Source: a virus. From it: a stretch of 64,000 bases of DNA. Each line of letters begins with the position of its first letter. The first letter of the stretch is position 1. The position numbers and the translations under genes were made by a program. The stretch is taken from the IMG/VR virus record IMGVR_UViG_3300008459_000012, positions 1 through 64,000 of that record, one strand, 5' to 3'. The notes under the pieces are model-generated. The model searched no databases. It saw only the letters and a list, made by a program, of their open reading frames with translations, and was not told where the DNA came from. Below are positions 5,236-24,762 of the stretch, one piece after another.

Positions 5236-6243
5236 TTATATTTGATGTGGATTTCCTGAATAAATAATATTTATAAACTGCGGTATTTCACTCATCAAAG
5301 TATCATTGATGAAAAATTTCATTTCAATAAAGTTTTTAAATATTTTAATTTCTTTTTTATAAATCAATTTAAAAATATTTAATTCTTCAACTACATCAAC
5401 TTTATTAAAAATAATATCAGTTATTCCATTCATTTTAATTGCAGGAATTAATGTATCAAGATTTAAATAATTGCATTGTCTTAATCTTCCTGTGGTTGCA
5501 CCAATTTCTTGACCTACTTGTTGAAATCTTGGCAATTCAGTATTCTCCAAAGGTTGGAATTGTTTATTCCCAACATATGTCTCATATATCTTGGCAATAC
5601 CAAATACATTTCCAATCATGTGATGATTAATACCTGATGAAATAACACCTGCTATACCGCAATGTGATGATGTAACATATGGGTAATCTCCAAAGTCAAT
5701 ATCTAAACCCCATCCTTGCGCTCCTTCAAAAAGGAAGTTATTTTTTTGTTCATGAAATAATTCATAGGTATCAACACATAAAAATCCATAAATAGATTTT
5801 TCATATCTAATTCCCTTTCTTAAATACTTATCACCATAAGCATATGCAATACCTGATTTTGTTGAACCGATAGTAGAACCATCTGAATCTAATTCAATAT
5901 GTTTCTTTGTTATTATATGCGCTCTTTTATCAATTAAAATAAAATTACTAATATCCTTACCTAAGAATGCTGAAAGTTCATCAGTTTCTTTTTGGAGTTT
6001 TTCAATATCAACAACTGAGCAAGGACCAATGATAGAATATATATCAAAGAATACTCCAACAGGAATCTGATGAGTGACAAATTTACGACCTTTGTGATAA
6101 ATGGTATGACCTGCATTTGGACCACCGTTATATCTTACAACAAAATTATAATAGTTTTTGTTTTCTTGACAAATTGAATAAGCACATTTGGCTTTCGCTT
6201 CATCCCCATGTTGGAGACCAATGATAACATCTACTTTGTTCAT
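5236..6243 (-). CDS. adenylosuccinate synthetase-like enzyme (PurA/PurZ family)
   Basis: PurA joins aspartate to IMP; phage PurZ enzymes join it to dGMP on the way to 2-aminoadenine (Z). At 335 aa this is far shorter than bacterial PurA (about 430) and close to PurZ-type proteins. Conserved parts: P-loop GDEAKAK at 13-19 (bacterial GDEGKGK, both Gly now Ala), GGPNAGHT at 40-47 with the catalytic-type His46, FEGAQG at 172-177, DYPYVTSS at 186-193, GATTGRLR at 248-255, and NKVD at 280-283. The catalytic Asp (Asp14, E. coli Asp13), reported to be replaced in characterised S-2L-type PurZ, is retained. Hence substrate (IMP or dGMP) cannot be decided. It leads a three-gene operon from a host-type promoter 5 bases before its ATG. 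Confidence 0.85.
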   Translation of the reverse strand: MNKVDVIIGLQHGDEAKAKCAYSICQENKNYYNFVVRYNGGPNAGHTIYHKGRKFVTHQIPVGVFFDIYSIIGPCSVVDIEKLQKETDELSAFLGKDISNFILIDKRAHIITKKHIELDSDGSTIGSTKSGIAYAYGDKYLRKGIRYEKSIYGFLCVDTYELFHEQKNNFLFEGAQGWGLDIDFGDYPYVTSSHCGIAGVISSGINHHMIGNVFGIAKIYETYVGNKQFQPLENTELPRFQQVGQEIGATTGRLRQCNYLNLDTLIPAIKMNGITDIIFNKVDVVEELNIFKLIYKKEIKIFKNFIEMKFFINDTLMSEIPQFINIIYSGNPHQI

Positions 6244-7388: not shown

Positions 7389-8078
7389 TTAGATTCTGTC
7401 CAAAAAATATTTGTTCTCAGGTTTCCAAATTTTGGGAAGGAATTTTAAATCCATTGATTCATAGAAATGATACCGCCAAATTAAAACAAAAACTTTGACT
7501 GATAAAGTATCTATAAGATAACGATTGATATCAAAGTCAAAATTTTCATTTATCAACCCATCATACTTATCAAGTATTTTATTTATTTTATTTCCAATTT
7601 TTATGGGGTCATTTTTTTTATAATCTCTTTTATATTTGAGATTTCTTATTAAATGTATATCTCTAACCAATCTTCTATAATAGAGTGGTACAAAATCACT
7701 ATAAATTTTATCTCTCAGTTCTGTTGCTTTGTCTTCATATTCATTATGACAAGTTCTACACATAGTCAATAAGTCATGATGATTAAATTCTTTAAATTCA
7801 ACAGGAAGATAAGGAAAGTATTGTTGAGGAACAACATGATGTTTAGTTAGATTATCCTTTGTACCACAACATACGCAATAATCTTGATATGATTCTTTAA
7901 AGTTATTGTAATCAAGTATAAATTCCTTTTCTACAAAACATAATCTAATATTATCACTACCATCAATTATTTCAGCTAGATTTCTTTTTAAATACCAATT
8001 TGCTCTTTTCTTACTTGTGTGTGATAAGAACCGACCATCTTTGCTATGTACTTCTATTCTTTCCCGACTACCTGACAT
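7389..8078 (-). CDS. HNH endonuclease
   Basis: This 229-aa protein has a zinc-ribbon HNH domain: CVCC at 68-71, KHHVVPQQYF at 79-88 with the catalytic-type HH, then CRTCHNEY at 107-114 giving the second CxxC. Residues 14-50 (GRFLSHTSKKRANWYLKRNL then IRLCF) resemble the short module that precedes HNH domains in some phage nucleases and the PLMP motif of IscB-type proteins. Roles for free-standing phage HNH proteins include homing, host DNA degradation and packaging; which applies is unknown. It starts one base after the endolysin stop (TAATATG) and so is co-transcribed with it. Confidence 0.8.
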   Translation of the reverse strand: MSGSRERIEVHSKDGRFLSHTSKKRANWYLKRNLAEIIDGSDNIRLCFVEKEFILDYNNFKESYQDYCVCCGTKDNLTKHHVVPQQYFPYLPVEFKEFNHHDLLTMCRTCHNEYEDKATELRDKIYSDFVPLYYRRLVRDIHLIRNLKYKRDYKKNDPIKIGNKINKILDKYDGLINENFDFDINRYLIDTLSVKVFVLIWRYHFYESMDLKFLPKIWKPENKYFLDRI

Positions 8079-8610: not shown

Positions 8611-8627
8611 ACGATTTTTTGTTTTTG

Positions 8628-8659
8628 CAAATATAAAAATAAAAATTTGTCTTTTCCAA
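8628..8659 (-). promoter_or_regulatory. host-type promoter of the endolysin operon
   Basis: Minus strand: TTG at 8659-8657, a 21-base spacer, then TATATTTG at 8635-8628, 17 bases before the ATG at 8610. It fits the Bacteroidota consensus at both boxes. Host-type rather than CTATTTA control of a lysis gene is unexpected. Confidence 0.6.
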
Positions 8660-8702
8660 AAAATGGAGAAGAAAATTTTAAAAAACTTAATTTTACTTTG
8701 TG

Positions 8703-11700
8703 TTATTTAACAAAAAAGTAAGCAGTTTTTGTTTTAACTGTCTGAGTACAACTTGTACATACTACATCTACTCTATACCATCTGTTTGAATAGGAAGGTA
8801 ATGGACTTGCAACTCTCAAAAATGTGCTTGAGTTAAGTTCAGATGTAGTAAAAGTGATATTACCATTACTTTGACCTGCGTTTCTAACAGAACCCCCTGT
8901 TGGTTGCCAAATAAGTTTTGAAGCCTGTGTTTGCGATAATGTACTATCACTTGCTAAAAATCCATTAGCTGAATTTCCATTATAGAATAAAACTTTATAA
9001 CCTGTACTTGAACAACTATTACTTAAATTAAAAGAGTAAGTAAAATTTGTTCTTCTTCTATCAATTGCTGTAATTGATGTTGTAGTACAAGCTGATGTTG
9101 GTACTGATGGGTTATAATTTACAATAACATTAATAGGTAATGAGATTGAATTATATATTCCATTCTTTAATACTCCTGTATAACTATATGTGCCATTTGC
9201 TTTGTTTGTGACTGATAGTGTTGTTGTAAATGAATTATTATTTGTTAATGGTGAAGATTTAACAATTGTACTTCCTTCTTTAATTTCATAAGATGTTGCA
9301 TTATGATTTGAAGGTGTATTAAATGTAATTATATAATTTTTATCTAAATTAACTAAAGTATCAGCAGTAACAGTTGGTACTGCTAAACTGATTACAGGAT
9401 TATAATTTACAGCTACAGCTACAGAATTTGATGTAGTATTGTTTGGTGTCTTAGACGAATTTAAAAGTTTAGCAGTATGTGTATATGTTCCGTTTGAAAT
9501 ACCCAATCTGCTAAGAGTTATTGTTATTGAATTATTATTAGCTAAATTACCTGAACCAATAACAGTAGTTCCTTGTAATATCTGATACGATGTTGCATTA
9601 TGGTTCTGTGGGATTGCAAAGGATAATACATAATTTGGGTCTTTATTTGATGTACTATCAACAGATAATGTTCCTGTTAAAATTGGGGTTACATTAAAAG
9701 ACACATTTACTGTAACAGGACTTGAGGTTTTAGTTTGACTTCCATTACTTAAATTAGCTGTGTGAGTATATGTTCCATTAGTTACATTTGTTCTAGCTGT
9801 TGTAATAGTTGTGGCATTGTTATTTGCTAAATTACCTGAAGCGATTACAGTTGTTCCTTGCAAAACTTGATATGATGTAGCGTTATGTGTTGATGGTATT
9901 GTTGTAGTTAGTGTATAGTTCTTATCTAAGTTATTTGCACTATCTACACTAATTGTTGGGGTTTTTAATGCTGTTGGTGAGTCTGTACCATCAACAGTAA
10001 TTGTATTAATAAAAAGATTATTGGATGGTATTGTTGTTAATTGTGTTGGTTTAAATACAAAAGCAAATTGAACATTTTTACATGTATCATAAGAAGATAA
10101 ATCAACTGTTTCAGTTCTCCAATCTGAAGATGTAATAGAAGCAGGTTTATATGGTGATGTTGATGTGTAAAGATTAGTAACAGTTCTTAAAGTAGTACCA
10201 CCCTTTTTATAGATTCTAACAGGTATTGTTTTACCACTAAAATATGCTAATATCTCTAAACTATCGTATCTTGGTGATGAACTAAGACCTAAAGCATGAG
10301 CAACTTTAAAATTAAGATTCAAGCTACTTAAATTATTATTTGTATAAACAGGAGAAAATGCTGTGTCTTGTAAAAATGCTGGGCTAGGATTATTAGTGCT
10401 TGTTATTGCAAATGTATGATAAAGCGCATTATATGTTGTTAATAAAAAAGACTTACTATTTTGCCAAAAACTTTGAACTAATGCACCATTATAGTTTGTG
10501 TTTAAATCTGATAATGATTGTGGACCTTTAAATTCCCAATTGGGATAATTTGCTGCTGTCCAAGTTGAAAATGTTTCTGTTTGTGGAATATTAAGTAATG
10601 GATTTACTCTTATTCTAATTTTAGCGGCATTTGATAAGCAACCAGTTTGTGTTGCTGTTACTGAATATAAACCTGAATTAGAACTTGTAAGAGAATTTAT
10701 ATTTGGACTTTGAGAACTTGATGTAAAACTATTTGGTCCTGTCCAACTATATGTTGCACCACCTACTGTTGTTGTTCTTAATGGTAATATTTCACCTGCT
10801 GAATAAAATCTTCTTGGTGTTGTTACTTTAATATATGGTATAGCGTTTCCAGGTAAACAAGATGAACCTGTTCTTATTTTGTCACCAGGTAATGGACCGA
10901 ATCCTTTCATTAAATCAACACCAGTAGATGCTGTATGACAATAACTCATTATTGTACCTTTTATAGGTTTTACTAATGTACCACAACCACCTTCTCCTGC
11001 ATAACAAGAGTCAATTCTACCTGTTCCACCACCTGCTTTAGGCCAACCGCACCAATGTGTATGTTTTGAACCAAAATTATGACCCATTTCGTGTGCTACA
11101 ACGTATACAGACCATGAATATGTATTTATATTATTATTAAAAGTATTATAAATATTGGAATAACCAAAACGGTTATTATAATATAAAGGATTACAAACAA
11201 CATCAATCCAAGCTATTCCACCTAAAAACCCAAAATTTGTTCCTAACAAATGTCCAAGTTTTTGTGTTATATTCTGTCTTCTTGTTGTAAAATTATTTAA
11301 AATTGCTAATGATGATATTGGACTTATTGATGCATATGGGTCAGGAGTTGTCCAAATATAAACTTGGTCAACATAAATTGATATACCTTCATTTTCATAA
11401 ATTTGTTTTACTAGATTAAATAATGATGTGACTTTTGCGGTTGTATTTGCAACAGATAACCCATTCTCTTGGTACATTCTATAATCACACTCAACATATA
11501 TACCTATTGTTTTACATCCTGAACCACCAACGGCCTCTCCTACTTCAGGTGTAGGTGTGTTACCAATTTGTGGTTGTACTTCTCTTAACCATTGATTCTC
11601 ATCCACATTTAAAGGTGGGTCAGGTGTAGTACAATCAAAACTAGGTTTAGAAGAACCCATTTCTGATTCAGGTAGTGCTACATATGTATCTTTTGCAGTT

Positions 11701-12152
11701 CTTAGTTTACCAATGTTAATATTGTCATTTCCATCTCCTTGTAATAAACCACCAATATCATCTTTAGTAACAGTTAAACCACCAAAGCTTCTTTCATTTT
11801 TTCTATCAAAAACTTTATAACTTACACCTGTAAAATCTTTTCCTGAAAATTCTCTACCATCAGATGTTGTAACTTTAAAAGTTGATGTTACAACCTGATG
11901 TTTTTTAAATACATAAGATTTTATTTTACCATTTGGTCTTGGTAAATCAAAAACAAATTCTTCAGGTTCACTTCTATATAAAGTTGATAATGTTGTTCTA
12001 TCTAAAGATAATTGTAAACCTTTTTGTTTAATCTTACTACTTTTAGGTGCATTGGGGAAGTTCCTCAAAAAATTAAATCTTTGAGGTTCTTCCTGTGCAT
12101 ATGATTTTAAAGTTAATAATGTTAATAATAAATACAGATATATTTTTTTCAT
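8703..12152 (-). CDS. secreted metzincin metalloprotease with Ig-like, adhesin-like and repeat domains (1149 aa)
   Basis: Order: signal peptide MKKIYLYLLLTLLTLKSYAQ (1-20); propeptide-like region (about 25-165); catalytic domain (about 212-430) with the complete metzincin site HEMGHNFGSKH at 354-364 (His354, Glu355, His358, His364) and Met-turn GTIMSYC at about 399-405; an Ig-like domain with YSWTGPNSF; a lectin/MAM-like region beginning near PNWEFKG; three repeats of about 95 aa starting V(D/T)(S/A)D-like (SVDSTSNKDPNYVLSF); and a C-terminal domain ending WYRVDVVCTSC ... FFVK. This resembles M12-type proteases secreted by Bacteroidota rather than any virion protein. It is the last gene of the secreted operon starting at 22060. 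A target on the host or competing cells' surface is inference. Confidence 0.85.
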   Translation of the reverse strand: MKKIYLYLLLTLLTLKSYAQEEPQRFNFLRNFPNAPKSSKIKQKGLQLSLDRTTLSTLYRSEPEEFVFDLPRPNGKIKSYVFKKHQVVTSTFKVTTSDGREFSGKDFTGVSYKVFDRKNERSFGGLTVTKDDIGGLLQGDGNDNINIGKLRTAKDTYVALPESEMGSSKPSFDCTTPDPPLNVDENQWLREVQPQIGNTPTPEVGEAVGGSGCKTIGIYVECDYRMYQENGLSVANTTAKVTSLFNLVKQIYENEGISIYVDQVYIWTTPDPYASISPISSLAILNNFTTRRQNITQKLGHLLGTNFGFLGGIAWIDVVCNPLYYNNRFGYSNIYNTFNNNINTYSWSVYVVAHEMGHNFGSKHTHWCGWPKAGGGTGRIDSCYAGEGGCGTLVKPIKGTIMSYCHTASTGVDLMKGFGPLPGDKIRTGSSCLPGNAIPYIKVTTPRRFYSAGEILPLRTTTVGGATYSWTGPNSFTSSSQSPNINSLTSSNSGLYSVTATQTGCLSNAAKIRIRVNPLLNIPQTETFSTWTAANYPNWEFKGPQSLSDLNTNYNGALVQSFWQNSKSFLLTTYNALYHTFAITSTNNPSPAFLQDTAFSPVYTNNNLSSLNLNFKVAHALGLSSSPRYDSLEILAYFSGKTIPVRIYKKGGTTLRTVTNLYTSTSPYKPASITSSDWRTETVDLSSYDTCKNVQFAFVFKPTQLTTIPSNNLFINTITVDGTDSPTALKTPTISVDSANNLDKNYTLTTTIPSTHNATSYQVLQGTTVIASGNLANNNATTITTARTNVTNGTYTHTANLSNGSQTKTSSPVTVNVSFNVTPILTGTLSVDSTSNKDPNYVLSFAIPQNHNATSYQILQGTTVIGSGNLANNNSITITLSRLGISNGTYTHTAKLLNSSKTPNNTTSNSVAVAVNYNPVISLAVPTVTADTLVNLDKNYIITFNTPSNHNATSYEIKEGSTIVKSSPLTNNNSFTTTLSVTNKANGTYSYTGVLKNGIYNSISLPINVIVNYNPSVPTSACTTTSITAIDRRRTNFTYSFNLSNSCSSTGYKVLFYNGNSANGFLASDSTLSQTQASKLIWQPTGGSVRNAGQSNGNITFTTSELNSSTFLRVASPLPSYSNRWYRVDVVCTSCTQTVKTKTAYFFVK
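8706..9100 (-). other. shared C-terminal domain of the secreted family, protease copy
   Basis: About 130 residues beginning ACTTTSITAIDRRRTNFTYS and ending WYRVDVVCTSC plus a short beta strand at the very C-terminus. Sister copies end the proteins at 12157, 14585, 22083 and 23344. Common pattern: C at the start, F-YRF/YSF, a Cys-Pro or Cys-Ser in the second strand, R--SP-P---WYR-D-VC--C. The four Cys may form disulphides. It does not show the usual type IX secretion C-terminal signature. Confidence 0.65.
9105..9960 (-). repeat. three tandem ~95-aa repeats in the metalloprotease
   Basis: Each unit opens with a V-D/A-D/S--N-D--Y pattern (SVDSANNLDKNYTL, SVDSTSNKDPNYVL, TADTLVNLDKNYII), has a conserved NHNATSYQ(I/V)-QGTTVI core in units 1 and 2, and closes near NGTY(T/S)(H/Y)T. 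Degenerate units occur in the 806, 418 and 372-aa proteins. An Ig-like beta sandwich is likely. Confidence 0.7.
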
Positions 12153-12156
12153 ATAA

Positions 12157-14577
12157 TTAATTTGTTACATAGAAATAAGCGACTCTCTTTTTGTTTGTTT
12201 GAGAACAAGTAGTACAAACTATTTCAACTTTATACCATCTATTTCCAAGAACAGGTAATGGACTTGCAACTCTGTTAAATACTTTAGAAGTAAGTTCAGC
12301 ATTTGTGAATTTTATATTTCCATTTGGAAATCCAACATTTCTAGGGCCACCACCTTCAGGTTTCCAAGTTAATCTATTTATTTGTGTTTGTGTTAGACTT
12401 GAATTGCTTGCTGAAACTCCTGTTACATTTTGTCCACTATAAAATAATGCTTTATAACTTGTTGTAGGACAATTTGGGTTTAAAGTAAATGAATATCTAA
12501 AACTACTTTTACTAGTATTTGGTGATGTAAGTGTACTAGTTGTACAAGCTTTAGCATCAACAACAGGTGCAGGAACATAAGTACTTGTAAAATTTATATT
12601 ACTTTTTACAATTTGTGTTGTCTTATTAAATACTCTAACAGAATATGTATATGTACCAGCTGTCTTGTTTTTAAATTTTAAACTAGTAGATGTTCTATTT
12701 TCTGGATTTAATAATCCCGAACCTATTAATCTACCATTTTCACTAACTTCATATTGTGTTGCTTTATGTCTAGTTGGTAACGGTATTGTTAATGTATATG
12801 TACCTGTAGATGGTGAAGGATTATTAATAACAGGATTAAAATCTGTTATTGGGGTTGTAAATGTATCAACTAATACAGGTAATGTATCTGTACTAACCAA
12901 ATTTAATCTGTTTTTATCAAAAATACTGAAAATACCATCTTGTGTATTACCTATTGATACTGTATGTTTATGAATACCATTGCTTGCTCTCCTTATAGTA
13001 TATTCAATCATTTTAAAACCGCCTACAATATCTGATATTACTAATTGTGTATCTGATTGTGATTCTAAAAAAATACTGTTTTTAATTAATTTTTTACCAT
13101 CATAAAATAATATTACATCACTATTATGGTCTGGTGGTAAAAATACTCTTAATTTATATGTCCTATCTTTATTTCTTGTTGAGTCAACATCAAGTCTTGG
13201 AACTCCTACAGGTGGATACGGAAAATCTGTGTACACCGTTACATTTTGATAACCATCTTTAATATATCCATTTTTTAAAAGTAATTTAACACCATAAATA
13301 ACTTTACCATTAAGTGTACTATCTCTCATTATAGTTACTGTTGTATCATTATATTCTATACGAGTAGGATTGTATGTTATACTATCATAAATAATACTAT
13401 CTAATTTTATCGTTTCTATAAGTATATCGGCAGATGATGTTTTTGCATATACAAATGCTAAAGATGAATTGTGATTATTTGGTATATTTACTGTTAAAGT
13501 ATGTGTTCTATCATAATTATGTACGCTATCAACTGTTATTGAAGGTGGGCTTTGAGGGTCTAAGGTGTCAATCATATAGTTAATAGCAAATTTATCTATT
13601 ATTGTCAGACTTGAGTTACTAACTCTATAATTTATCCCAGGAAAAGGCTTCAATATTATCATAACTTTTATCGTATTAGCTGTATCATATGGACTTAAAT
13701 CAAAACTAAACCTTTTCCAATCGTATGATTTATTTGATGTTGGGTAACGAAGTCTAGTTGTATCTAAATATTCACTAGTACTTAACTGTAACCCACCTCT
13801 TTTCCATAATTCAACAGGTGTTTGATTATTTCCAATTAAAGCTTTTACAATCAAAGTATCATACTCACTATCTGTAGAATCTGCTAAATAATGGACATAA
13901 TTAAAATGAAGAGTTAATTTTCTATCATTACTTGATGTGTCAGGTATTGAAAAAACATTAGATATTATACTATCAGGATATGAATATATTGATGTGTCAG
14001 GAGAGTGATAAACAGCATTGTATGGTAAACCACCATCAAGATAATATCTTAAACTATTCCAAAGACTTTTAATATTTTTACCTGCTAAAACAGAACTATC
14101 ACTAGGTCTATAAACACCTTTAAATTCCCAATTAGGATAGTTACCATTATGTTCCATTTCTTCAAAACTTTCATAAAATGGAACACTCAAACCTGATGTT
14201 ACTGTAATATGTATTGAATCAAGTGTTGTTGGGCAACCACTTTGTCTAAATCTAACATAATACCATCCTGAATCTGCTAATGTTAAATTATTTCTTACAG
14301 AAAAAGTATTTTCTTCAACACCAAAATCACCAGCAAAATCTTCTAATGATGTTGTATCTCCATTTGGATATATAAAGTTATAATACAAAAGATTTAGACC
14401 ATCGGTTGAACCTTCACTAACAAATCTAAATACTGATAATGTTAAATTAGAACCAACAGGGTATGAAGTTTGTGTTGTTACAATAGAAGGTTGAGAACAA
14501 AATGTCTCTAATTGTCCAAAAGATAAATTTGGTAACAAAAGTATTAAACTTGTGAGTATGTAAAGTATTTTTTTCAT
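12157..14577 (-). CDS. secreted adhesin-like protein, paralogue of the metalloprotease without the catalytic domain (806 aa)
   Basis: I start it at the ATG at 14577, which gives a clean signal peptide (MKKILYILTSLILLLPNLSF then GQ) 7 bases after the upstream stop; the longer frame from 14664 runs inside the previous gene. Then follow an Ig-like domain (YYVRFRQSGCP), a lectin/MAM-like region with NYPNWEFKGV, three repeats (SVHNYDRTHTL, STRNKDRTYKL, and a third with THKATQYEVS-like core), and a C-terminal domain ending WYKVEIVCTTC ... YFYVTN. Domain order matches the metalloprotease downstream. No enzymatic motif is visible. Probably binds or coats a surface; function unknown. Confidence 0.75.
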   Translation of the reverse strand: MKKILYILTSLILLLPNLSFGQLETFCSQPSIVTTQTSYPVGSNLTLSVFRFVSEGSTDGLNLLYYNFIYPNGDTTSLEDFAGDFGVEENTFSVRNNLTLADSGWYYVRFRQSGCPTTLDSIHITVTSGLSVPFYESFEEMEHNGNYPNWEFKGVYRPSDSSVLAGKNIKSLWNSLRYYLDGGLPYNAVYHSPDTSIYSYPDSIISNVFSIPDTSSNDRKLTLHFNYVHYLADSTDSEYDTLIVKALIGNNQTPVELWKRGGLQLSTSEYLDTTRLRYPTSNKSYDWKRFSFDLSPYDTANTIKVMIILKPFPGINYRVSNSSLTIIDKFAINYMIDTLDPQSPPSITVDSVHNYDRTHTLTVNIPNNHNSSLAFVYAKTSSADILIETIKLDSIIYDSITYNPTRIEYNDTTVTIMRDSTLNGKVIYGVKLLLKNGYIKDGYQNVTVYTDFPYPPVGVPRLDVDSTRNKDRTYKLRVFLPPDHNSDVILFYDGKKLIKNSIFLESQSDTQLVISDIVGGFKMIEYTIRRASNGIHKHTVSIGNTQDGIFSIFDKNRLNLVSTDTLPVLVDTFTTPITDFNPVINNPSPSTGTYTLTIPLPTRHKATQYEVSENGRLIGSGLLNPENRTSTSLKFKNKTAGTYTYSVRVFNKTTQIVKSNINFTSTYVPAPVVDAKACTTSTLTSPNTSKSSFRYSFTLNPNCPTTSYKALFYSGQNVTGVSASNSSLTQTQINRLTWKPEGGGPRNVGFPNGNIKFTNAELTSKVFNRVASPLPVLGNRWYKVEIVCTTCSQTNKKRVAYFYVTN

Positions 14578-14584
14578 AGTTTTA

Positions 14585-17500
14585 TTATTCATTAAAGTAG
14601 TAATATATTGATTTAATGTTTTGAGATGTAGAACCGCTAGGACAAGCTGTACAAATAACATCAATTCTATACCAATTATTTAAAGTCGTTGGTTTAGGGG
14701 TTAATCTACTGAACATTTTATTTAGTCGTTCTTGTTGTGTAAATCTTATTGTTCCATCAGGAATCTCATCATTTTGGAATCTTGCAATTGGTGTAGGGTT
14801 TACTGTTAATTTTTTAACATAGAAATCTTCAAGATATTCATTATTTGCATAAATTGTAGTTGCGACTTCATTACCATTACTATCAACACTAGTTGATGTT
14901 GAATTTTCTAATTTATATAATAAAACTCTATATTTCGTTAAAGGACAAGAGGATAATAAATCAAAATTTAAAATATCTGTAAATGGTTCTATATTAAAAT
15001 TATTAAGTGGAATACATGGTCTAGGATTTAATTTAACTTGTACAAAATTTGAATTTTGAAGAGGATATGAAACATTATTTGCAGCACTATATGCTCTTAA
15101 AATATATGAATACGCACCTGGGTTAGGTTTTTTATCTTTTATTGAATCAACCTGTAAAAAACAATTATATTGTTGTGTAATCTGTACTCTTTTCTTGAAA
15201 ACAAAAGGATTAGAAGTATTTGATTGATTTTTTTCATAAACATCCACGAAATCTATATTATTTAATTCATCAGGTTTAGGAGAATTAACTTCAATATATA
15301 AATTATAATTACCATAATTAAAATCAGATACATCACTTAATTGTGGTATTTGTCCGTTTGGTGTTAAAGAATCTGAATTTCTAACATATAATTTAATAAC
15401 TCCAAGAGGTACGGTACATGTTCTACAAATAGCTACACTAGTTGGTTCAGTAAATTCAACAGTAGGATTGTCAAGAATACTACTATATCTAAGACGATAT
15501 AAATGTAAACCATCTGGTATATTTGTAAGATTGAAATTATAAGAACATGTTACGTTATAATTATAAAATTTAACATTAGTTGGCATTGCAGGTGTACAAT
15601 TTGTATATGTTAAGGTTTGTCCTACATTTTGCCATGTAGTATCAGATTCTCCTGTAGGTGTTGTTACAATTGTACCTTTTTGTAATACGAAATTCTGAAT
15701 ATTTGACTTAGCAAAAAATGTAGTTTTTAATGAAAGATTACCATCAAAATTAAAAGCACTATCAGGAAAAAATATTGGTTTTCTTTTAGGTAACCTTTTT
15801 TGATATGTTGTAACACTTGTTGTTATTGTTTGTGGTTCTGTTTCATTAAAAATATTACCATTTATATTTGCTGTATTTAGATTTTCTAAAACAGCCTCTA
15901 AATTATATTGATTTCCAGGTGTTGTTTGAAAAGACCCTTCTGCAAGTATAGGACCTACAAATGTACCATCCGCTTTTTTAATTTCATTATCATCTATACT
16001 ATATGTTTGTTCTGTAATACCTGTCTTTAATAATTGTCTAGTATTATCTGGTCTAATTAAATTAATTGTATATCTATAAACATTATTTGGTATTGGTGAA
16101 GTTAATTTCCAATTACCTACTCTATCTTCAGGGTCAACATTTGGATTCAAAGGTATAGTATCATTTACAGCATTAGTAATTTCAAGTGTTGGGTCTCCTC
16201 CTTCACATAATTCTAATGGAATATTTCTTCCACTTAATATTTCCATAGAACCTAAAACTAATGAACTAGCATATAAACTAGAAGAAATATTTTTATAAAC
16301 AATATCAAATTGTAAACTTCTACAATCATCAAAATTTCTTATATCTAATTTTATATCAGACCAATCAACTGTATTTTTATAATATCTATTATTGATAGGA
16401 CTTCTTAAATATTCTGCCATAGGCTTATGGTATATTTTAATGGGTTCTATTTCTCCTGTGTATACATTTTTTGTATATCCAGGAAACCACGCTACTGTTC
16501 CTATTGGCATTGGTACGCTATCAAATTCAATAGGTGAGTTAAAATAATGGTTTAATACATAACCTGGTCTTATTAATCTTTGTGTATTAAAATAACCAGG
16601 TGTTAATTCACCATTATTAGTTAATGTATAATTACCACTACCAGTGCCTTCAAATTGTTCCGCAGGGTCACCAAATCTATGAAATTTAAAATGAGTTTTA
16701 TTTTTATATGATGACATATCTTTTAGATTTCCTTCAAAAACTAAACTTCTCCTTAATGTACCATTTTCAGTTACACCTCTTGCCCATATTTCTATCTTAT
16801 CTGCACCAAAATTTTGACCTGCTCTTATATTAGCACTCCATCTCATGCTCTGCGCTCCTGTTGGTGCATAATAATAAACAATACCTGTATCGGGTACAGT
16901 AAAATATGAATAACTTAATTTAAACCTTAAATAGTTATTTTGATTGTCATCATTAAAATATAAAGGTGAACGTGCTGTATCTGATGTACCTTTTCTAAAA
17001 TTTGTTAAACTAGCCCAATCAGGTAAGGATTTTAGATTTCCAAATTCATTATTAAGATAATCAGTAGCTTTATAATTACGCTTACGAGTTTCACCCCAAT
17101 AATCATCTCTTATAGCCTGTTCATTATCAAATTGTACATCATTTGTTCCCCATAAATAACTTAAAGTCCAAAAATCATAAGTTTTATCAATTCTAGTTAT
17201 TGGGTCATACCAATTAATATTAAAAGGAGGTGTTTGAATTATTGGTCTTAATCTATACCATTCACTACCTTCTGAAAAAATACCAGGAAAAACTCTATTT
17301 GCTCTAGTTCTATTTATCCATATATAATCTCTTTCATGAAACCAACTAGAAGAATGCGCCCATGCTTCTGGACCTTGTCCAAGCCATGTATTTGAAGCAT
17401 CGTTTTGCCATGTTTCATTATACCCATAAGTACTTCTAGCACCTAAATCAATAATTTTGTTAGTTGCAAATAATCTATCTCTACCATAAAAATATTTTAT

Positions 17501-20500
17501 TGGTGACTTAGCATTTGATGGTAATCTTCCACCACCTATATTTACAACACTAAATGTTTCATCATCATTATTTTCGTAAGTAATACCACTTGTAAAAACA
17601 TTTGGTCTATAATATTCATAAATATTAAATGCCCAATTTTTCCAAGGTTTTTCTCTATAAGCATAGGCTTTATACATAGGTCTGTGTTCGTTTTTGAAAA
17701 ATACACCACCACCATCATATGCCCCTAATCCATAATTATATGTTTTATCAAATCTTGGGTCAGCTAATGCAGGGTCACCTACTGTATATTGTTCTTTTGC
17801 TTTTTCAGAACTTCTTATTGGGAAATAAAATAATGTATTATAACTTGACCAATTATCTACATAAGTTGCATATTGGAATGGAGTATAATTAAAAAAATCA
17901 GGGCTAAATCCTTGTGCAAAACGAGAACTTACATATGCATTTCTGTGAAAAACTGGGTGTTCATTATTTGCCACTCTTCCTGAGTAAAATGGGTCTAATG
18001 ATGTTGATAAGTTACCCATACTCCATCCTGTATTACTAAAACGAGATGGTGACCAAGGTTTCATACCTCTATTATAATATCCTGCTGTATACGTTGATGC
18101 TTCATTAAAAGCATTGCCTTCACCTGTTGACCAAGGACCAATAAATTCCCAATTCTTCATTCCAAAGGCTCTATTACCATATAAATTTTTAGTATTTAAA
18201 TTAAATTGGTCATATTTAATTCGTGAAGTACCACCTTTTAATGTAAAAGCACCAACTGAAAAACCAAATGGTGTATATGGTGTAAATGAAGCACCACTAG
18301 ATGGACTAATTTTTTCTATAAAACTAAGCCTTACAGGTGTTTCTTTTCTAGGATATACTCTAATATATTTTATAGCAGTATTTGAAATACAACCACTAGT
18401 ATCTGTTAGTCTTAAAGATATTGGATAAATTCGCATTAAACTATCCTGATTACTATTATTAGGTATAAATATTCTAGCCCTAGATTTATTTCTAGCCCTA
18501 GGAATACCTGCTAATCCTGTAATTGGAAAATTTCCGTTTGCATTGGTTAAAGAAGCACTATTAAAACTCCATACATAACCAGTACTATCAAATCTAGAAC
18601 CGCCAGGTCTATCCAAAGCTTCATAGCGTGATTGGACTTTCATTTGTTTTCCATACCAATTATCAAGATTTGTAAAATTATCTGATTCGTTAATTTGTTC
18701 TTCTGTTGTTAGACTATTATTTTTTATAACCATTAATCCTTCATTTACAACATTATTTTCAATACCAGGATAATCGGCAGCTAAAACATTATTTCTTGCA
18801 AATATTGTATCACCTGCAAATTGATATTCAATGGCAGGTGATAATATATTTCTTTTATGCCATAAACTAACAGTTGCGTATGGATTAGGTCTTCCTCTAA
18901 TCAAACCATTACCTCTAACACAATTTGGGTCTGTTGTACAATTACAATTATTTATATTTGGTCCATGTCCACTAATTTCTTCGCCCATCAGATTTAATCT
19001 AATTAAATCACCTGTTTTTTTATCAAATCCTTTTGAAAATGATACTAAATCAACAGGACACATATTATCTATTAATTGTAAATTCCACATTGAATATCTT
19101 GCATCCCAGTTTTGCCAACCAATTTTTAAATCACCCTTTTTATCCCAATCATCTTCATCATAATTATTGTCTCCTGATGAATTTGTAGATTGTATATGTT
19201 TTCTATATATATAAGGCCATTGATAACCTACAACTGGTGGTACTAAATCTTCTCTACTCCAACCGAAAGATGAACCTTGTGTTACCATTGTTGCTGCAAT
19301 ATATACTGCTAAAACAACCCATGTAACTGTCATTGTTGTACCATTATGCCATAAGTTTTTATCATCGTCATTACCAAACCAATGTGCATAACCATTCCAC
19401 CACCAATTTTCACCATTACCTCTTACTGTATGTTTAGATGCAAATTTTATTCTAAGTGGAACAAAAATACCTGCTGTTATTAAGGCATTACCTAAATTAC
19501 CCCATACTAAATCCATAATATCAGTAGGTTCTGATACGCCAGTTGCAAAACTAGGATACAAATAAGTTTGATACCAATGTCTAAGCCATGACGTATTTCC
19601 AGGTACATTTTTTTCAGATGGCGCTCTTTCACTTATATGCGGTGTACCTTCAGGACCTGAATTAGGAGAATAAGTATAATTATCAGCATCATAATTATTA
19701 TTTCTTGCTAATGGTGCTAAAATTGTATTTCTATTTGTTGTTGTCGTAAAATATCTTGGACCTAATTTTATTGCAATGTGATGAACTAACATCCAAACAT
19801 TCCATTTGTCAATATTATATGCAAGATGATTTGAATTTCCAAATTGACCTGTTGTACCATAAAGTTCTTGAACATCTTGATAATTCCATTGTAAAACAGT
19901 ATCAGTAGCTATTTCATCACCATCATATATGATTTTATGCATAGGATATTGTTTGTAATTTATAGCATCACCATTTTTCCAATCTCCATTATTTGTTAAT
20001 ACATCAAAATATTTTGTATTGACATTTTCTAAATCATAGGTATAATACCACATATTACCTAACAATGGTATTATTCCAGTTCTATCAGGTATAGTTTCAA
20101 ATTTTGTATTATTAGGTAACCCATATATTTTAGTAGGATAAGAAATATATGGATGTGATACACCAATTGATTGTAGATGTGCGCCAACCTCATCAAATCC
20201 ATTTACTTTAATATTTTGATATGAAACAGGCATTTTTTTAGACAAATCATAATAATATACAAATGGGTCAATATTACCGAATAAAGTAGAATTATAACTT
20301 GATGGATTTGGTAAATTTAAAACATTATCATCTGATATATCTTTAGGTGCTACAAGCATTGGTAAATAATTGTTATGATTAAATGTGCCTGGAGGTATAT
20401 TATAATTTCCCCAACGCATGTTCATACTCCAACCAGTAAAATTATTTCCATTCCAATCATTGCTTTCGTTTGCAAAATTTTGACCACTATATTTTATTAT

Positions 20501-22060
20501 ATTTGCTCTTGCATTTTCATTCCTAATGAATTCTTTCCAACTCATAGCAGGATTTTCATTTGTCGTTGCAGGTGTAATATCACCAATATAAAACCAAAAA
20601 CCATCATAAAAATCACTTAAACTTTGACCATATGTTGGTCCATAAAGTCCAGGACCAATTTGTTGTCTTATTCTTATAAAAGGTGTTGTTGAAAAATAAT
20701 TAGCATTTGTTAGTTTTTCAAATGTTTTACCAGTCCATCTATCATTATATAATGTAAAAGCAGTATCATTGTCAGCGACTGATTTTATATAATCATTAAA
20801 AACATCAAAAAGTCCATGTAAACCCCAACGTACACCTGATGTATTTGTTCTACCACATGACCAAAGATTTATATTACTATAATTACCACCATTATAAAAG
20901 TCATTATCATCTTTTGGTATATCTTTAAAAGCACCATCATCCGCTTCACTATATGGTGATTGCCAACCTTTCCATTCTCTATTACCTCGTAAATATTGAT
21001 TTTTAAAATGTTTAATATCATAAACCACTTCACTAGTGGCATTATCTAAAGCACCTTGTTCGGGTGTAAAATCTTTTTGATAAGTTTCTAAAGGTTCTGT
21101 TTCAACAACTATTTTACCTAATTGAACATTAATTCCTTCATTTTTAAAAATATTTACTACTTGTGTAAAATAATTTGTTAATTTTTGTGTAACTTGAGTT
21201 ACCGCTGTTTGATTATAACTCTTTTTAATAGAACCTTCTTTTAATGTTAATTTTCCATTTTCAATAATAAATGTTGGTGTTTGCCATTTTAAATACATTT
21301 CATAACTTATCATGTAATTTACTAAAATTACTTGACATCTAGTATATACTAAAGGTTCACAATCATGATTACTTGGTGGTGGGGCTGGGGCAGGTGCTAA
21401 TAATTCATCATTTTTAAATTGTTTAAAAGTTTGTTGACTTTCTTTTTCGTTTTTAATATCAAAATCTTTTACTTCTTTCATTGCCGATATATCAGATTTT
21501 GTAAGTATTTTTTCATTTTTAATTTTATCAATCTTTGAAATAATATCTTTTATATTTTTAAAATCTTCTGTGCTTTTATCATTTATCTGATTTTTTGATA
21601 TGTGTGTAATTTTAGTATTAAATTCTTTTTCTATTTTAATTTCTTCACCATTAACTCGTAAATTAATATAAACATTATTTGGATATATTGTCATTGTACC
21701 CATATTAATATTATTAAAATCATTTATATTATATGAAAGACCATTATATAATTTTGTGGTAAAAAAATGTCCACTAGTTGTATAAGTCATTCCAAGATTA
21801 TCTTCTCCACGAATATCTAATCTTTCTAACTCAAACTTTTCGGTAGTGTTTAAATATGGAATTTCCATTTCAACAATAGCATTTTTAGGTTCTGAGCTAA
21901 AAATCTCCATTAAATTATCTTTATTAACAGTAAAATGTTTTTCAGGTGATTTCCTTTCAACAATTTTATAAGGTTTTCCTAATGAATTATTTATTGCACC
22001 TAAAGATTTGAATATTAATGTATTCAATAAAATTAGTGAGAAAAGTAATATTTTTTTCAT
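14585..22060 (-). CDS. giant secreted protein, probable catalytically dead metzincin paralogue (2491 aa)
   Basis: Signal peptide MKKILLFSLILLNTLIFKSL (1-20), then a propeptide-like region resembling that of the 1149-aa protease (SSEPKNAIVEMEIPYL against RSEPEEFVFDLPRPNG). NIFKNEGINVQLGKI at about 315 matches QIYENEGISIYVDQV of the protease. Where the protease has WSVYVVAHEMGHNFGSKH, this protein has WNVWMLVHHIAIKLGPRY (about 754-771): the first His stays but Glu and the other two zinc His are lost. A Met-turn-like DIMDLVW follows. Large Trp, Tyr and Asn-rich insertions, a lectin-like part with NWEFIGPWS, later beta repeats and a C-terminal domain ending WYRIDVICTAC complete it. A non-catalytic surface or decoy role is inference. 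It heads the three-gene secreted operon. Confidence 0.75.
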   Translation of the reverse strand: MKKILLFSLILLNTLIFKSLGAINNSLGKPYKIVERKSPEKHFTVNKDNLMEIFSSEPKNAIVEMEIPYLNTTEKFELERLDIRGEDNLGMTYTTSGHFFTTKLYNGLSYNINDFNNINMGTMTIYPNNVYINLRVNGEEIKIEKEFNTKITHISKNQINDKSTEDFKNIKDIISKIDKIKNEKILTKSDISAMKEVKDFDIKNEKESQQTFKQFKNDELLAPAPAPPPSNHDCEPLVYTRCQVILVNYMISYEMYLKWQTPTFIIENGKLTLKEGSIKKSYNQTAVTQVTQKLTNYFTQVVNIFKNEGINVQLGKIVVETEPLETYQKDFTPEQGALDNATSEVVYDIKHFKNQYLRGNREWKGWQSPYSEADDGAFKDIPKDDNDFYNGGNYSNINLWSCGRTNTSGVRWGLHGLFDVFNDYIKSVADNDTAFTLYNDRWTGKTFEKLTNANYFSTTPFIRIRQQIGPGLYGPTYGQSLSDFYDGFWFYIGDITPATTNENPAMSWKEFIRNENARANIIKYSGQNFANESNDWNGNNFTGWSMNMRWGNYNIPPGTFNHNNYLPMLVAPKDISDDNVLNLPNPSSYNSTLFGNIDPFVYYYDLSKKMPVSYQNIKVNGFDEVGAHLQSIGVSHPYISYPTKIYGLPNNTKFETIPDRTGIIPLLGNMWYYTYDLENVNTKYFDVLTNNGDWKNGDAINYKQYPMHKIIYDGDEIATDTVLQWNYQDVQELYGTTGQFGNSNHLAYNIDKWNVWMLVHHIAIKLGPRYFTTTTNRNTILAPLARNNNYDADNYTYSPNSGPEGTPHISERAPSEKNVPGNTSWLRHWYQTYLYPSFATGVSEPTDIMDLVWGNLGNALITAGIFVPLRIKFASKHTVRGNGENWWWNGYAHWFGNDDDKNLWHNGTTMTVTWVVLAVYIAATMVTQGSSFGWSREDLVPPVVGYQWPYIYRKHIQSTNSSGDNNYDEDDWDKKGDLKIGWQNWDARYSMWNLQLIDNMCPVDLVSFSKGFDKKTGDLIRLNLMGEEISGHGPNINNCNCTTDPNCVRGNGLIRGRPNPYATVSLWHKRNILSPAIEYQFAGDTIFARNNVLAADYPGIENNVVNEGLMVIKNNSLTTEEQINESDNFTNLDNWYGKQMKVQSRYEALDRPGGSRFDSTGYVWSFNSASLTNANGNFPITGLAGIPRARNKSRARIFIPNNSNQDSLMRIYPISLRLTDTSGCISNTAIKYIRVYPRKETPVRLSFIEKISPSSGASFTPYTPFGFSVGAFTLKGGTSRIKYDQFNLNTKNLYGNRAFGMKNWEFIGPWSTGEGNAFNEASTYTAGYYNRGMKPWSPSRFSNTGWSMGNLSTSLDPFYSGRVANNEHPVFHRNAYVSSRFAQGFSPDFFNYTPFQYATYVDNWSSYNTLFYFPIRSSEKAKEQYTVGDPALADPRFDKTYNYGLGAYDGGGVFFKNEHRPMYKAYAYREKPWKNWAFNIYEYYRPNVFTSGITYENNDDETFSVVNIGGGRLPSNAKSPIKYFYGRDRLFATNKIIDLGARSTYGYNETWQNDASNTWLGQGPEAWAHSSSWFHERDYIWINRTRANRVFPGIFSEGSEWYRLRPIIQTPPFNINWYDPITRIDKTYDFWTLSYLWGTNDVQFDNEQAIRDDYWGETRKRNYKATDYLNNEFGNLKSLPDWASLTNFRKGTSDTARSPLYFNDDNQNNYLRFKLSYSYFTVPDTGIVYYYAPTGAQSMRWSANIRAGQNFGADKIEIWARGVTENGTLRRSLVFEGNLKDMSSYKNKTHFKFHRFGDPAEQFEGTGSGNYTLTNNGELTPGYFNTQRLIRPGYVLNHYFNSPIEFDSVPMPIGTVAWFPGYTKNVYTGEIEPIKIYHKPMAEYLRSPINNRYYKNTVDWSDIKLDIRNFDDCRSLQFDIVYKNISSSLYASSLVLGSMEILSGRNIPLELCEGGDPTLEITNAVNDTIPLNPNVDPEDRVGNWKLTSPIPNNVYRYTINLIRPDNTRQLLKTGITEQTYSIDDNEIKKADGTFVGPILAEGSFQTTPGNQYNLEAVLENLNTANINGNIFNETEPQTITTSVTTYQKRLPKRKPIFFPDSAFNFDGNLSLKTTFFAKSNIQNFVLQKGTIVTTPTGESDTTWQNVGQTLTYTNCTPAMPTNVKFYNYNVTCSYNFNLTNIPDGLHLYRLRYSSILDNPTVEFTEPTSVAICRTCTVPLGVIKLYVRNSDSLTPNGQIPQLSDVSDFNYGNYNLYIEVNSPKPDELNNIDFVDVYEKNQSNTSNPFVFKKRVQITQQYNCFLQVDSIKDKKPNPGAYSYILRAYSAANNVSYPLQNSNFVQVKLNPRPCIPLNNFNIEPFTDILNFDLLSSCPLTKYRVLLYKLENSTSTSVDSNGNEVATTIYANNEYLEDFYVKKLTVNPTPIARFQNDEIPDGTIRFTQQERLNKMFSRLTPKPTTLNNWYRIDVICTACPSGSTSQNIKSIYYYFNE

Positions 22061-22073
22061 GTTTTTTTATTTT

Positions 22074-22080
22074 TAAATAG
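22074..22080 (-). promoter_or_regulatory. CTATTTA element upstream of the 2491-aa gene
   Basis: CTATTTA followed by AAAATAAAAAAA on the minus strand, 13 bases before the ATG at 22060. It overlaps the stop region of nothing and lies in the 22-base gap to the 418-aa gene's stop, so the giant gene probably starts a transcript covering 22060-8703. Confidence 0.5.
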
Positions 22081-22082
22081 GT

Positions 22083-23339
22083 TTAATTTGTTACATATGT
22101 ATAAATTGTTCTGATATTTGTTGGACTATTACATCCTGCACATACGATGTCTATTCTATACCAACAGTTACCATATGTTAACTTAGGAGTTGCTTTTCTC
22201 CTAAAAAATCCTTGACTTACTTCAGTTTGTGTTAGTAAAATTCTTGTGCTTGTTGTTGTTTCAATTTCTGCATTTTTATATTGAACCTTTGCTAACGGTA
22301 GCGTTCCAACTTGTACTTGTGACAATGAAGGATTTGATGCAAGTAATCCATTACCATCAATACATCTATAAAATCTTGCTTCCCAACCTGTTCTTGGACA
22401 GGATGTTAAGGTGTTAAATCTATATTCAAAATTTGCTTTTGTACTATTAATTACACTAAGTGCTGTTGTTGAGCATTGTTTTGCTGCAAATCTTACAGTT
22501 AATAAATCACTAAAATGTGTATTACAACTATCATATACTTCAACTGATTTAATTTTATAATATTTTATACCTGTTTGAGGTACAGTTACGGTTGGTCTTG
22601 CCCATAATTTATCATTTCCAAAGTTACCCATAGGACCAGGGGCAGTAAATATATTATTTTGGAAATAATTAAAAGTAGTAAAAGGATATAATAATTGACC
22701 ACTTGAAGTGCATTCCCATAATTCATACCTTCCAACATTATTTAATGATGATGCATATATTTGACCACTAGGTGGTGTAGGATTAAACCAATATGTAGAA
22801 TTTGGTTTCCATTCACTATGAATATTAATTCTTGCTACTTTATCATAATTTACAGCACTATCAGCAGTTATTTTCATTGGTAACATAAATGTAGAATTAT
22901 GTGATAATCCCAAAATATTATTTTCTGGTCCTTGCGGTGTAATTGCGTATTTATGATTTTGAAGTGTATCAACTACTAAAAAATAATAATATAATTTTAC
23001 ACTATGTAATTGATTAGTTCTATTAATTATAACTGTGTCTGCTGATGTTGTAGATGGTAAGATACCATATATGGGATAATCATAAAATAATGTATCATTT
23101 ATATTACCATCAGTACATAATTTAGTACCAATTAATACAATGTAGTAATATTTAAAACCGTGATTTTCTTTAAATATTGCTTTTAATTGATGCGTTCTAT
23201 CTTTATTTGATGTTGAATCAACTGTAAAAATTACATCTTCTGTAACATAAAATGGGTCAATTGTAGGAACTGCTTGTTGTGCAAATATTTTTACTGAAGT
23301 AAGTAAAAGTATTAGAAGTGTGTAAAGTATTTTTTTCAT
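22083..23339 (-). CDS. secreted repeat protein with the shared C-terminal domain (418 aa)
   Basis: Signal peptide MKKILYTLLILLLTSVKIFA with cleavage before Q-Q. Two repeats of the family follow (TVDSTSNKDRTHQLKAIFKE near 39; ADSAVNYDKVARINIHSEW near 158), then the C-terminal domain beginning CSTTALSVINSTKANFEYRF and ending CWYRIDIVCAGC ... YTYVTN. No catalytic motif. It is a short member of the five-protein family and forms a pair with the 372-aa gene 5 bases upstream, sharing its promoter. Confidence 0.75.
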   Translation of the reverse strand: MKKILYTLLILLLTSVKIFAQQAVPTIDPFYVTEDVIFTVDSTSNKDRTHQLKAIFKENHGFKYYYIVLIGTKLCTDGNINDTLFYDYPIYGILPSTTSADTVIINRTNQLHSVKLYYYFLVVDTLQNHKYAITPQGPENNILGLSHNSTFMLPMKITADSAVNYDKVARINIHSEWKPNSTYWFNPTPPSGQIYASSLNNVGRYELWECTSSGQLLYPFTTFNYFQNNIFTAPGPMGNFGNDKLWARPTVTVPQTGIKYYKIKSVEVYDSCNTHFSDLLTVRFAAKQCSTTALSVINSTKANFEYRFNTLTSCPRTGWEARFYRCIDGNGLLASNPSLSQVQVGTLPLAKVQYKNAEIETTTSTRILLTQTEVSQGFFRRKATPKLTYGNCWYRIDIVCAGCNSPTNIRTIYTYVTN

Positions 23340-23343
23340 AATT

Positions 23344-24462
23344 TTAAAGGTATATATAAACGTATTTACTTATTAATTTATTAGGATATGGGCAAGTTGC
23401 ACAAACGATATCTATTCTGTACCATCCATAATTTATTATTTTTGGTGATGCATCTCTTTCAAAATATCCTTGAATTATTTCTTGTTGTGTTAATGTTATC
23501 CTAGAACTTGTTAAAGTCTCAATATCTGTAACATTCTTATATTGAACATTAGCGGTTTTTAAATTTGGTAAAATTGATTGAGATAAGTTTAAATTTTGAG
23601 CATCGTAATTATCTGTATCTAATAATCTATAAAATCTTGCTTCATATGCTCTTGTCTGATTAGGACAATTTGAATTTAGAGTAAATCTATATCTAAATTT
23701 TGTTGTTTGGTCATTTAAAATACTTAAATTACTTGGGGCGCAAGATGGAACAACAGGTGGTGGATTAAATGTTACCGTAGTTACATTACTTAGAGCAAAT
23801 TCACAAGTATCAAGCGTTGGAAATAAAAATGCTCTTCTTCTTAAAAATGCTCTGTAATAGTATGTTCCTGGTGGTTTTGTTATATTAAAATCAACTGTAG
23901 TTGGTGGATTCGTAGTGTATGTTGGTGTTTGTAATATATTTGTAAAGGTTGAACTAGTTGCAGAGGTATATTCTCTTATAACTATTCTACCAACATTACT
24001 AACGGTTGGTAAGGTAACTCTTAATCTAGCTGTATTATTATTATTTATAACAGTATCAACAGATAAAAAACTATTATTTAAAGTTTTTATTGGTTTATTA
24101 TTTTGTTTTGTTATAATTTGTATTTGGTTTGCTGCATTATTTGTAGCAACTGCTATGTACAAATAAATACCATTACCAATTGTTGGCATAACATAAGAAA
24201 ATGTGTCTGCTGATGTTGTGTTTACTGTTGGTTGTTGTAATAAATTATAACCTTGTTGTTGGTATGTACAAAGATTTGCATATTGTCCAATAATATTAAA
24301 AGATGTAATTCCATGATTTGGTTTTAAAATAATCTTTATGGTATGTATTGTATCATAATTGATTGATGAATCTACCTGTATTGCCCAAGAAGAATTTGAT
24401 GATTGGCTAAATCCTAAGAATGGAAAAAGGGTTAGGGTTAAAAATATTAAAAATTTTTTCAT
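23344..24462 (-). CDS. secreted repeat protein with the shared C-terminal domain (372 aa)
   Basis: Signal peptide MKKFLIFLTLTLFPFLGFSQ at 1-20. Two repeats (QVDSSINYDTIHTIKIILKP near 30; SVDTVINNNNTARLRVTLP near 135) precede the C-terminal domain, which begins CAPSNLSILNDQTTKFRYRF and ends YGWYRIDIVCATC ... YVYIYL. It is most like its 418-aa neighbour in the C-terminal domain (both have ARFYR and SRI-LTQ-E--QG-F-R-A-PK). It leads the transcript from a CTATTTA element 9 bases before its ATG. Function unknown; secretion across the inner membrane is well supported by the signal peptide. Confidence 0.75.
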   Translation of the reverse strand: MKKFLIFLTLTLFPFLGFSQSSNSSWAIQVDSSINYDTIHTIKIILKPNHGITSFNIIGQYANLCTYQQQGYNLLQQPTVNTTSADTFSYVMPTIGNGIYLYIAVATNNAANQIQIITKQNNKPIKTLNNSFLSVDTVINNNNTARLRVTLPTVSNVGRIVIREYTSATSSTFTNILQTPTYTTNPPTTVDFNITKPPGTYYYRAFLRRRAFLFPTLDTCEFALSNVTTVTFNPPPVVPSCAPSNLSILNDQTTKFRYRFTLNSNCPNQTRAYEARFYRLLDTDNYDAQNLNLSQSILPNLKTANVQYKNVTDIETLTSSRITLTQQEIIQGYFERDASPKIINYGWYRIDIVCATCPYPNKLISKYVYIYL

Positions 24463-24471
24463 GTTTTTCTT

Positions 24472-24478
24472 TAAATAG
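24472..24478 (-). promoter_or_regulatory. CTATTTA element upstream of the 372-aa secreted gene
   Basis: CTATTTAAAGAAAAACAT, 9 bases (from the end of CTATTTA) before the ATG at 24462. The same 18-base string occurs in front of the virion-type gene at 31679, which supports a shared phage signal. Confidence 0.55.
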
Positions 24479-24490
24479 GAAAAAAACCAC

Positions 24491-24498
24491 TATATTTG
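24491..24498 (+). promoter_or_regulatory. host-type -7 element before the 63-aa membrane protein
   Basis: TATATTTG on the plus strand, 20 bases before the ATG at 24519. No exact TTG at -33. Together with the terminator downstream it frames a one-gene unit. Confidence 0.5.
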
Positions 24499-24518
24499 TA
24501 AAACAATTTGTAATTATT

Positions 24519-24710
24519 ATGACAAAAAATCAAATCTATGGACTAGTGGCGGTGGTAGTGCTTGCGCTAGGTGGTGGTGGTTATTATTTTATGACCCCAC
24601 AAAAAGAATGTTGCAAAAAAGAAGCTACATGTAATGCAATGACAGATAGTTCTGCAACTGTTAGCGATTCTGCAAAAGTAGATACCGCAGCAGTAAAAAC
24701 TACAAATTAA
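24519..24710 (+). CDS. small single-pass membrane protein with Cys-rich motif (63 aa)
   Basis: The start is the ATG at 24519, after the host-type promoter; the frame's earlier start lies inside the opposite gene. Residues 7-24 are a strong transmembrane segment (YGLVAVVVLALGGGGYYF). ECCKKEATC at 30-38 carries three Cys, and the tail is Ser/Thr/Asp/Ala-rich. The base composition (GTGGCGGTGGTAGTGCTTGC) is more GC-rich than the neighbours. It is a plus-strand gene between minus-strand blocks with its own promoter and terminator, the layout of a moron. It could be a lysis, exclusion or envelope protein; no family is recognised. Confidence 0.6.
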   Translation: MTKNQIYGLVAVVVLALGGGGYYFMTPQKECCKKEATCNAMTDSSATVSDSAKVDTAAVKTTN

Positions 24711-24733
24711 TCTAACTGAGAACTAGGTTATTT

Positions 24734-24760
24734 AACCCTTGAGAAATCAAGGGTTTTTTT
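24734..24760 (+). terminator. rho-independent terminator after the 63-aa gene
   Basis: Perfect 9-bp stem AACCCTTGA/TCAAGGGTT (24734-24742, 24747-24755) with a GAAA loop, followed by TTTTT (24756-24760). The upstream side lacks an A-tract, so it mainly serves the plus-strand gene. Confidence 0.88.
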
Positions 24761-24762
24761 AT

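Follow-up and report, generated by a model that had tools for sequence, protein, structure and literature searches.

A large tailed phage of predicted Bacteroidota hosts was found to carry five neighbouring genes whose products all have a signal peptide at the N-terminus and a shared, homologous C-terminal domain (CTD) at the other end, and comparison with bacterial relatives suggests that this CTD is a localisation module occupying the position of their type IX secretion system (T9SS) sorting tag. We judge the chances to be about even that these genes form an accessory operon for secreted, non-virion proteins in which the CTD replaces the T9SS tag at the cell surface.

The window analysed, the first 64 kb of the IMG/VR record IMGVR_UViG_3300008459_000012, belongs to a linear sequence of 91,136 bp. 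The record has a RecA-like gene that is related, at 34% identity, to the one in the Flavobacterium myovirus immuto, and that is 81-96% identical to copies in sister contigs. On the longest of these, which measures 170 kb, genes for TerL, portal, major head protein, tail sheath and baseplate wedge were recognised; they mark the phage as tailed and contractile, with Bacteroidota as its putative hosts. Since the 170-kb sister shares the record only from about 58.5 kb onward and extends past its other end, the full genome is probably larger than 200 kb. Elsewhere in the record, an SbcD/SbcC-like (gp47/gp46) gene looks, by eye, to be split by a split intein within its Walker A motif, the two ORFs lying on the minus strand at record positions 66042-67379 (L009:2042-3379) and 58541-61135, the latter within the window; the N part reads GENQVGK-CVHPETKI..., the C part opens with an intein-like stretch that ends ...YANNIAVHN-S, and sister contigs have retained the two ORFs. 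Very long repetitive proteins with HAEG/HSEG-type or fibre-like repeats are encoded at window positions 47030-51184 and 52038-58487 (minus strand), and an island of glycosyltransferase/methyltransferase-like genes at record positions 67397-74638 is mostly without sister-contig counterparts. A short adenylosuccinate synthetase-like gene (window 5236-6243, minus strand) scores best as PurA and lower as PurZ, both below the curated cut-offs, and 2-aminoadenine DNA is not supported by it. An Rfam scan of the window gave no match.

The cassette consists of five co-directional genes separated by gaps of only 4-22 bp (Table 1). A sequence-only reading of this DNA had described five adjacent genes covering about a quarter of the window; all five ORFs were located on the minus strand, together spanning about 16 kb, or 24.6% of the window. 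The start of gene 2 was placed at about 14577 rather than at the TTG at 14664. At all five N-termini a clear Sec-type signal was assigned, by reading the sequence rather than by a predictor, and an A/G/S-Q cleavage site follows in most of them, in agreement with the signal peptides claimed earlier. No match to the cassette proteins was returned by a PHROG search, and PADLOC assigned none of them to the anti-phage defence proteins.

Table 1. Features of the cassette and its flanks, in window coordinates
Feature	Position	Strand	Content or evidence
Gene 1	8703-12152	-	1149 aa: signal peptide, prodomain, M12B protease, Ig-like domain, PNWEF segment, three VDS repeats, CTD
M12B/reprolysin catalytic domain of gene 1	10851-11513	-	Pfam PF13688
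Three tandem VDS-type repeats of gene 1	9111-9965	-	
CTD of gene 1	8706-9113	-	AlphaFold pLDDT 81, pTM 0.75
Gene 2	12157-14577	-	806 aa: signal peptide, PNWEF segment as in gene 1 (by eye), VDS repeats, CTD; protease absent
CTD of gene 2	12160-12573	-	
Gene 3	14585-22060	-	2491 aa: signal peptide, degenerate reprolysin, long region without assignment, gene 1-like segments, CTD
Reprolysin prodomain and first half of protease in gene 3	21062-22060	-	hhalign E 6e-9; hmmsearch
CTD of gene 3	14588-15016	-	
Gene 4	22083-23339	-	418 aa: signal peptide, VDS-type repeat, CTD
CTD of gene 4	22086-22493	-	
Gene 5	23344-24462	-	372 aa: signal peptide, a pair of weak VDS-type repeats, CTD; 37% identity with gene 4
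CTD of gene 5	23347-23766	-	E 3e-38 against a model that includes gene 5
Endolysin (phage lysozyme)	8080-8610	-	Pfam E 1.8e-9; PHROG endolysin
Upstream boundary	24463-24762	.	divergent small ORF and terminator-like inverted repeat; homologous to the L052 empty site
Downstream boundary	8611-8702	.	L052 homology resumes ahead of the lysozyme start

All five proteins end in one homologous domain of about 120-140 aa. When the CTD of gene 4 was used as the query against the 91-kb record, it retrieved exactly the other four, with E-values of 1e-33, 1e-22, 5e-21 and 2.5e-9, far beyond chance, and the conserved core was confirmed as WY(R/K)(V/I)(D/E)(V/I)(V/I)CxxC; the related domain and its WY...C--C ending had both been noticed before. 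Searches of the CTD against Pfam, PHROG, NCBIfam and the PDB matched no family, and no PDB sequence was hit. In a tree of the CTDs, the five copies of the window group together in a single clade, apart from the twelve others (support 100/98), and therefore go back to duplication within this phage lineage, so that the block, as far as sequences can tell, grew inside the lineage from one protease gene.

The accessory nature of the cassette was revealed by a sister contig, L052, which the first reading had overlooked. On either side of the site, the gene order of the window is preserved in L052, comprising a helicase (86% identical), small genes, the lysozyme, a ParB-like gene and a PurA-like gene, and between the small divergent ORF and the lysozyme L052 has only about 80 bp and no cassette. 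Because this site is empty, the cassette is an accessory insertion, a phage accessory block of the moron type as defined against one sister contig. A chimeric assembly was considered and ruled out, with both flanks syntenic with L052 and a base composition that fits the record. The eight sister contigs found via RecA do not span the cassette site, which makes the absence of the CTD from them uninformative, and a PurA-based search for more sisters recovered unrelated phages only. At the upstream edge, the divergent small ORF (window 24519-24710, plus strand), which has a hydrophobic N-terminus, a Cys-containing tail and a TAnnTTTG box ahead of it, has its counterpart in L052. On the other side, an HNH-like gene adjoining the lysozyme (window 7389-8078, minus strand) is also missing in L052; as a possibly mobile gene, it may be connected with the acquisition of the block.

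Gene 1 encodes the one intact metalloprotease that had been reported, an M12B/reprolysin enzyme with the zinc motif HEMGHNFGSKH (11061-11093) and an IMSYC Met-turn, matching Pfam PF13688 at E 6.7e-20 (72.6 bits against a cut-off of 27); its Ig-like domain resembles repeats of the Aureispira grappling-hook protein. Gene 3 opens with a degenerate copy of the same protease, overlooked in the first reading, in which the homologous region continues to about aa 1024 as a marginal match. It is classed, from its sequence, as a predicted pseudoprotease, because the prodomain and N-terminal half are homologous and yet no HExxH occurs across its 2491 aa, so that it falls outside the zinc-motif definition of M12B. 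By eye, HHIAIKLG was tried as an equivalent of the catalytic site; it is without statistical support, and the claim is limited to the loss of HExxH. Compared with annotated phages, genes 3 and 1 gave no match beyond one marginal Thermus phage at 5% coverage. Genes 2, 4 and 5 have no protease. VDS/NxD repeats, said to occur in most of the genes, are indeed present in four: gene 1 has three, gene 2 has two to three, a single one was detected in gene 4, and two were seen by eye in gene 5; none was found in gene 3.

The same CTD is thus common to active, inactivated and protease-free proteins, a distribution that would be expected of an address or anchor module rather than of part of an enzyme. 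The C-terminal tags on the protease family point the same way. Among the 37 bacterial homologues scanned, which include one that bears the CTD (L057), 33 carry the T9SS type A domain TIGR04183, and searches with NCBIfam and Pfam sorting domains found none in the five window proteins or in the further CTD proteins tested, consistent with the earlier remark that the domain lacks the usual type IX sorting features. In the protease tree, all 13 CTD-bearing proteases fall within a set of 15 (SH-aLRT 99), a mostly viral clade apart from the T9SS-bearing enzymes, and the two members without a CTD are the phage proteases L054 and L140, both with a lipobox. A further phage protease outside that clade, L139, has a lipobox and neither the CTD nor a T9SS tag, and no recognisable lipobox occurs among the 17 CTD proteins. 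The T9SS tag, the CTD and the lipid anchor therefore appear to behave as alternatives in these protease sequences, the lipobox part coming from two independent groups, and the occurrence of one tag type per protease is what chiefly speaks for a localisation role of the CTD. As a natural experiment, the same protease with a T9SS tag, a CTD or a lipoprotein anchor makes that role directly testable. Two viral-contig reprolysins, L142:9815-11974 and L149:9872-11677, carry a canonical T9SS type A domain above the cut-off.

The CTD family extends beyond this phage, comprising 17 proteins from seven virus records and three bacterial genomes, with L143 as a weak member; in all 17, which share the signal peptide, the CTD stands strictly at the extreme C-terminus. 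Among the phage records, G010 has three tandem genes, all reprolysins, G011 has two that are scattered, and L055, L137, L138 and, weakly, L143 also carry the domain. These phages are clearly different, with a tail-tube gene beside the G010 block, a terminase and an amidase endolysin in L055, and an integrase in L138. Scans of viral collections were seeded with short peptide patterns, which distant members escape; a profile applied to viral contigs through one degenerate pattern confirmed none of 44 pattern matches. In bacteria, a genome search with a loose first filter, whose counts are all lower bounds, found the CTD in 1 of 395 genomes sampled from the whole phylum, in 4 of 291 from a single order and, within a small family, in 4 of 11; none of 296 genomes from the order of an Aquimarina genome gave a match. 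Genes of an ordinary chromosomal kind, for example frr/pyrH-like or mnmA-like ones, lie on the contigs concerned, and the three readable bacterial CTD reprolysins (full-length in L057, L167 and L168) have the order signal peptide, protease, VDS repeat and CTD, as in gene 1. The profile search suggested by the sequence-only reading thus placed the domain in other phages and also on a handful of reprolysins encoded in the chromosomes of a single small family of bacteria. Its proposal of a new targeting or anchoring module is strengthened by the lack of any known sorting domain, by the occurrence in different phages and by the T9SS-tag position (33 of 37), and its word "new" is qualified by the chromosomal reprolysins.

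AlphaFold models of the CTD (pLDDT 81 and 88) predict an Ig/FN3-like beta-sandwich, for which Foldseek searches of the PDB and of viral models found nothing at E <= 1e-3 and generic Ig/FN3-type folds only. The modelling proposed earlier therefore yielded a fold that fits a binding domain and a sorting signal alike. FN3/Ig-like domains are common binding modules, and other domains of the cassette proteins are also Ig/FN3-like, so the CTD could be an ordinary ligand-binding sandwich for surface glycan, capsule or peptidoglycan, the proteins leaking or escaping at lysis and binding their substrate. This we hold to be rather unlikely: the domain stands at the extreme C-terminus in 17 of 17 proteins, is retained after enzyme loss and takes the place of the T9SS tag, behaviour that one would sooner look for in a localisation element. 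T9SS sorting domains are likewise Ig-like, and the fold by itself decides nothing.

The surroundings of the cassette bear on two further explanations. The lysozyme lies directly downstream, 92 bp past the last gene, and the GC3 of the cassette (0.10-0.115) is near that of fibre-type genes rather than replication genes (about 0.16-0.22); in the whole record, fibre-type and cassette genes lie at about 0.07-0.12, and replication and lysis genes at about 0.15-0.22. This position and composition suggest late expression. The lysozyme has its own TAnnTTTG promoter-like box 17 bp before its ATG, so that cassette and lysozyme may or may not share a transcript. The proteins could act as periplasmic lysis accessories, exported late by Sec and weakening the envelope together with the lysozyme, as might be read from this adjacency, from the L055 and L137 proteases two genes ahead of an amidase endolysin, and from a phage-derived secreted metzincin that sensitises Listeria to phage lysins (PMC8235301). 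Such a role seems improbable, since the G010 genes adjoin a tail-tube gene, the G011 genes are scattered, and the large multi-repeat proteins and the T9SS-tag replacement indicate a location beyond the outer membrane; L052 has the lysozyme without the cassette, which is therefore dispensable for lysis in general. Virion structural or host-adhesion fibres with misleading hydrophobic N-termini would account for the large beta-rich repeat proteins, the fibre-like GC3 and the adjacent tail-tube gene in G010. Against them speak five signal peptides that recur on chromosomal homologues, an intact metalloprotease with its prodomain and the absence of the cassette from sister L052, and the head, sheath and baseplate genes of the lineage lie elsewhere, on a sister contig; we consider this reading highly improbable.

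On the favoured reading of a secreted, surface-directed accessory operon, an ancestor phage would have gained a Bacteroidota-type reprolysin gene with signal peptide, prodomain, M12B domain, VDS repeat and CTD; the direction, from bacteria-type gene to phage, is one that we infer. The gene would then have been duplicated and diversified into one active-looking protease, one dead copy and three other beta-rich proteins, with signal peptide and CTD retained on all five. The products, presumably made late, would be exported by Sec to the periplasm and folded with CTD disulfides, after which the CTD would carry them to, or hold them at, the outer surface, doing the job of a T9SS sorting domain through an unrecognised class of T9SS signal or another envelope partner. 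The protease might trim surface proteins or matrix while other members bind or shield, and the likeliest benefit would be progeny release or spread; superinfection exclusion or effects on competitors are other possible benefits. A broader proposal is more tentative, and we think it possible but on the unlikely side: the CTD would be an unrecognised class of outer-membrane export or surface-attachment signal, spread mainly via Bacteroidota phages, for the display or release of phage proteins, proteases and pseudoproteases among them, from infected cells. Its study could uncover a new surface-display signal in Bacteroidota. Phages are usually held to affect the host exterior only through the virion or lysis, and about 16 kb of commonly tagged secreted proteins would, if the reading is true, mean that the phage actively controls the surface or the surroundings of the cell while it is infected.

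Among known systems, T9SS type A cargo (TIGR04183/Por_Secre_tail), especially the reprolysins of Bacteroidota, is a close parallel, sharing signal peptide, prodomain, M12B domain, further domains and an extreme C-terminal domain, with about 30-40% identity to the window protease; the window CTD differs from the type A domain in being longer, in its conserved Cys including CxxC, and in having no detected sequence similarity to it. Cryophage encodes T9SS cargo (PMC7468147), likewise as variable accessory phage genes for secreted, C-terminally tagged proteins, so that a phage with secreted accessory proteins is in itself no novelty; its cargo has the canonical T9SS type A domain on unrelated enzymes, whereas the window has a different tag on five related tandem copies. 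The Listeria metzincin/TIMP-like pair (PMC8235301), likened to the window genes by description only, also includes a secreted metzincin of phage origin affecting the envelope and phage lysis, but it belongs to a Gram-positive host and has an inhibitor-like partner. The flavobacterial phage Molly has a zinc metallopeptidase with an export signal, proposed to degrade extracellular matrix (PMC8776804), and has in common with the window a phage-borne metallopeptidase with such a signal. Within the libraries and literature searched, what is new beside these systems is the CTD family, the replacement of the T9SS tag, the expansion to five paralogues within a phage, including a predicted pseudoprotease, and the empty site.
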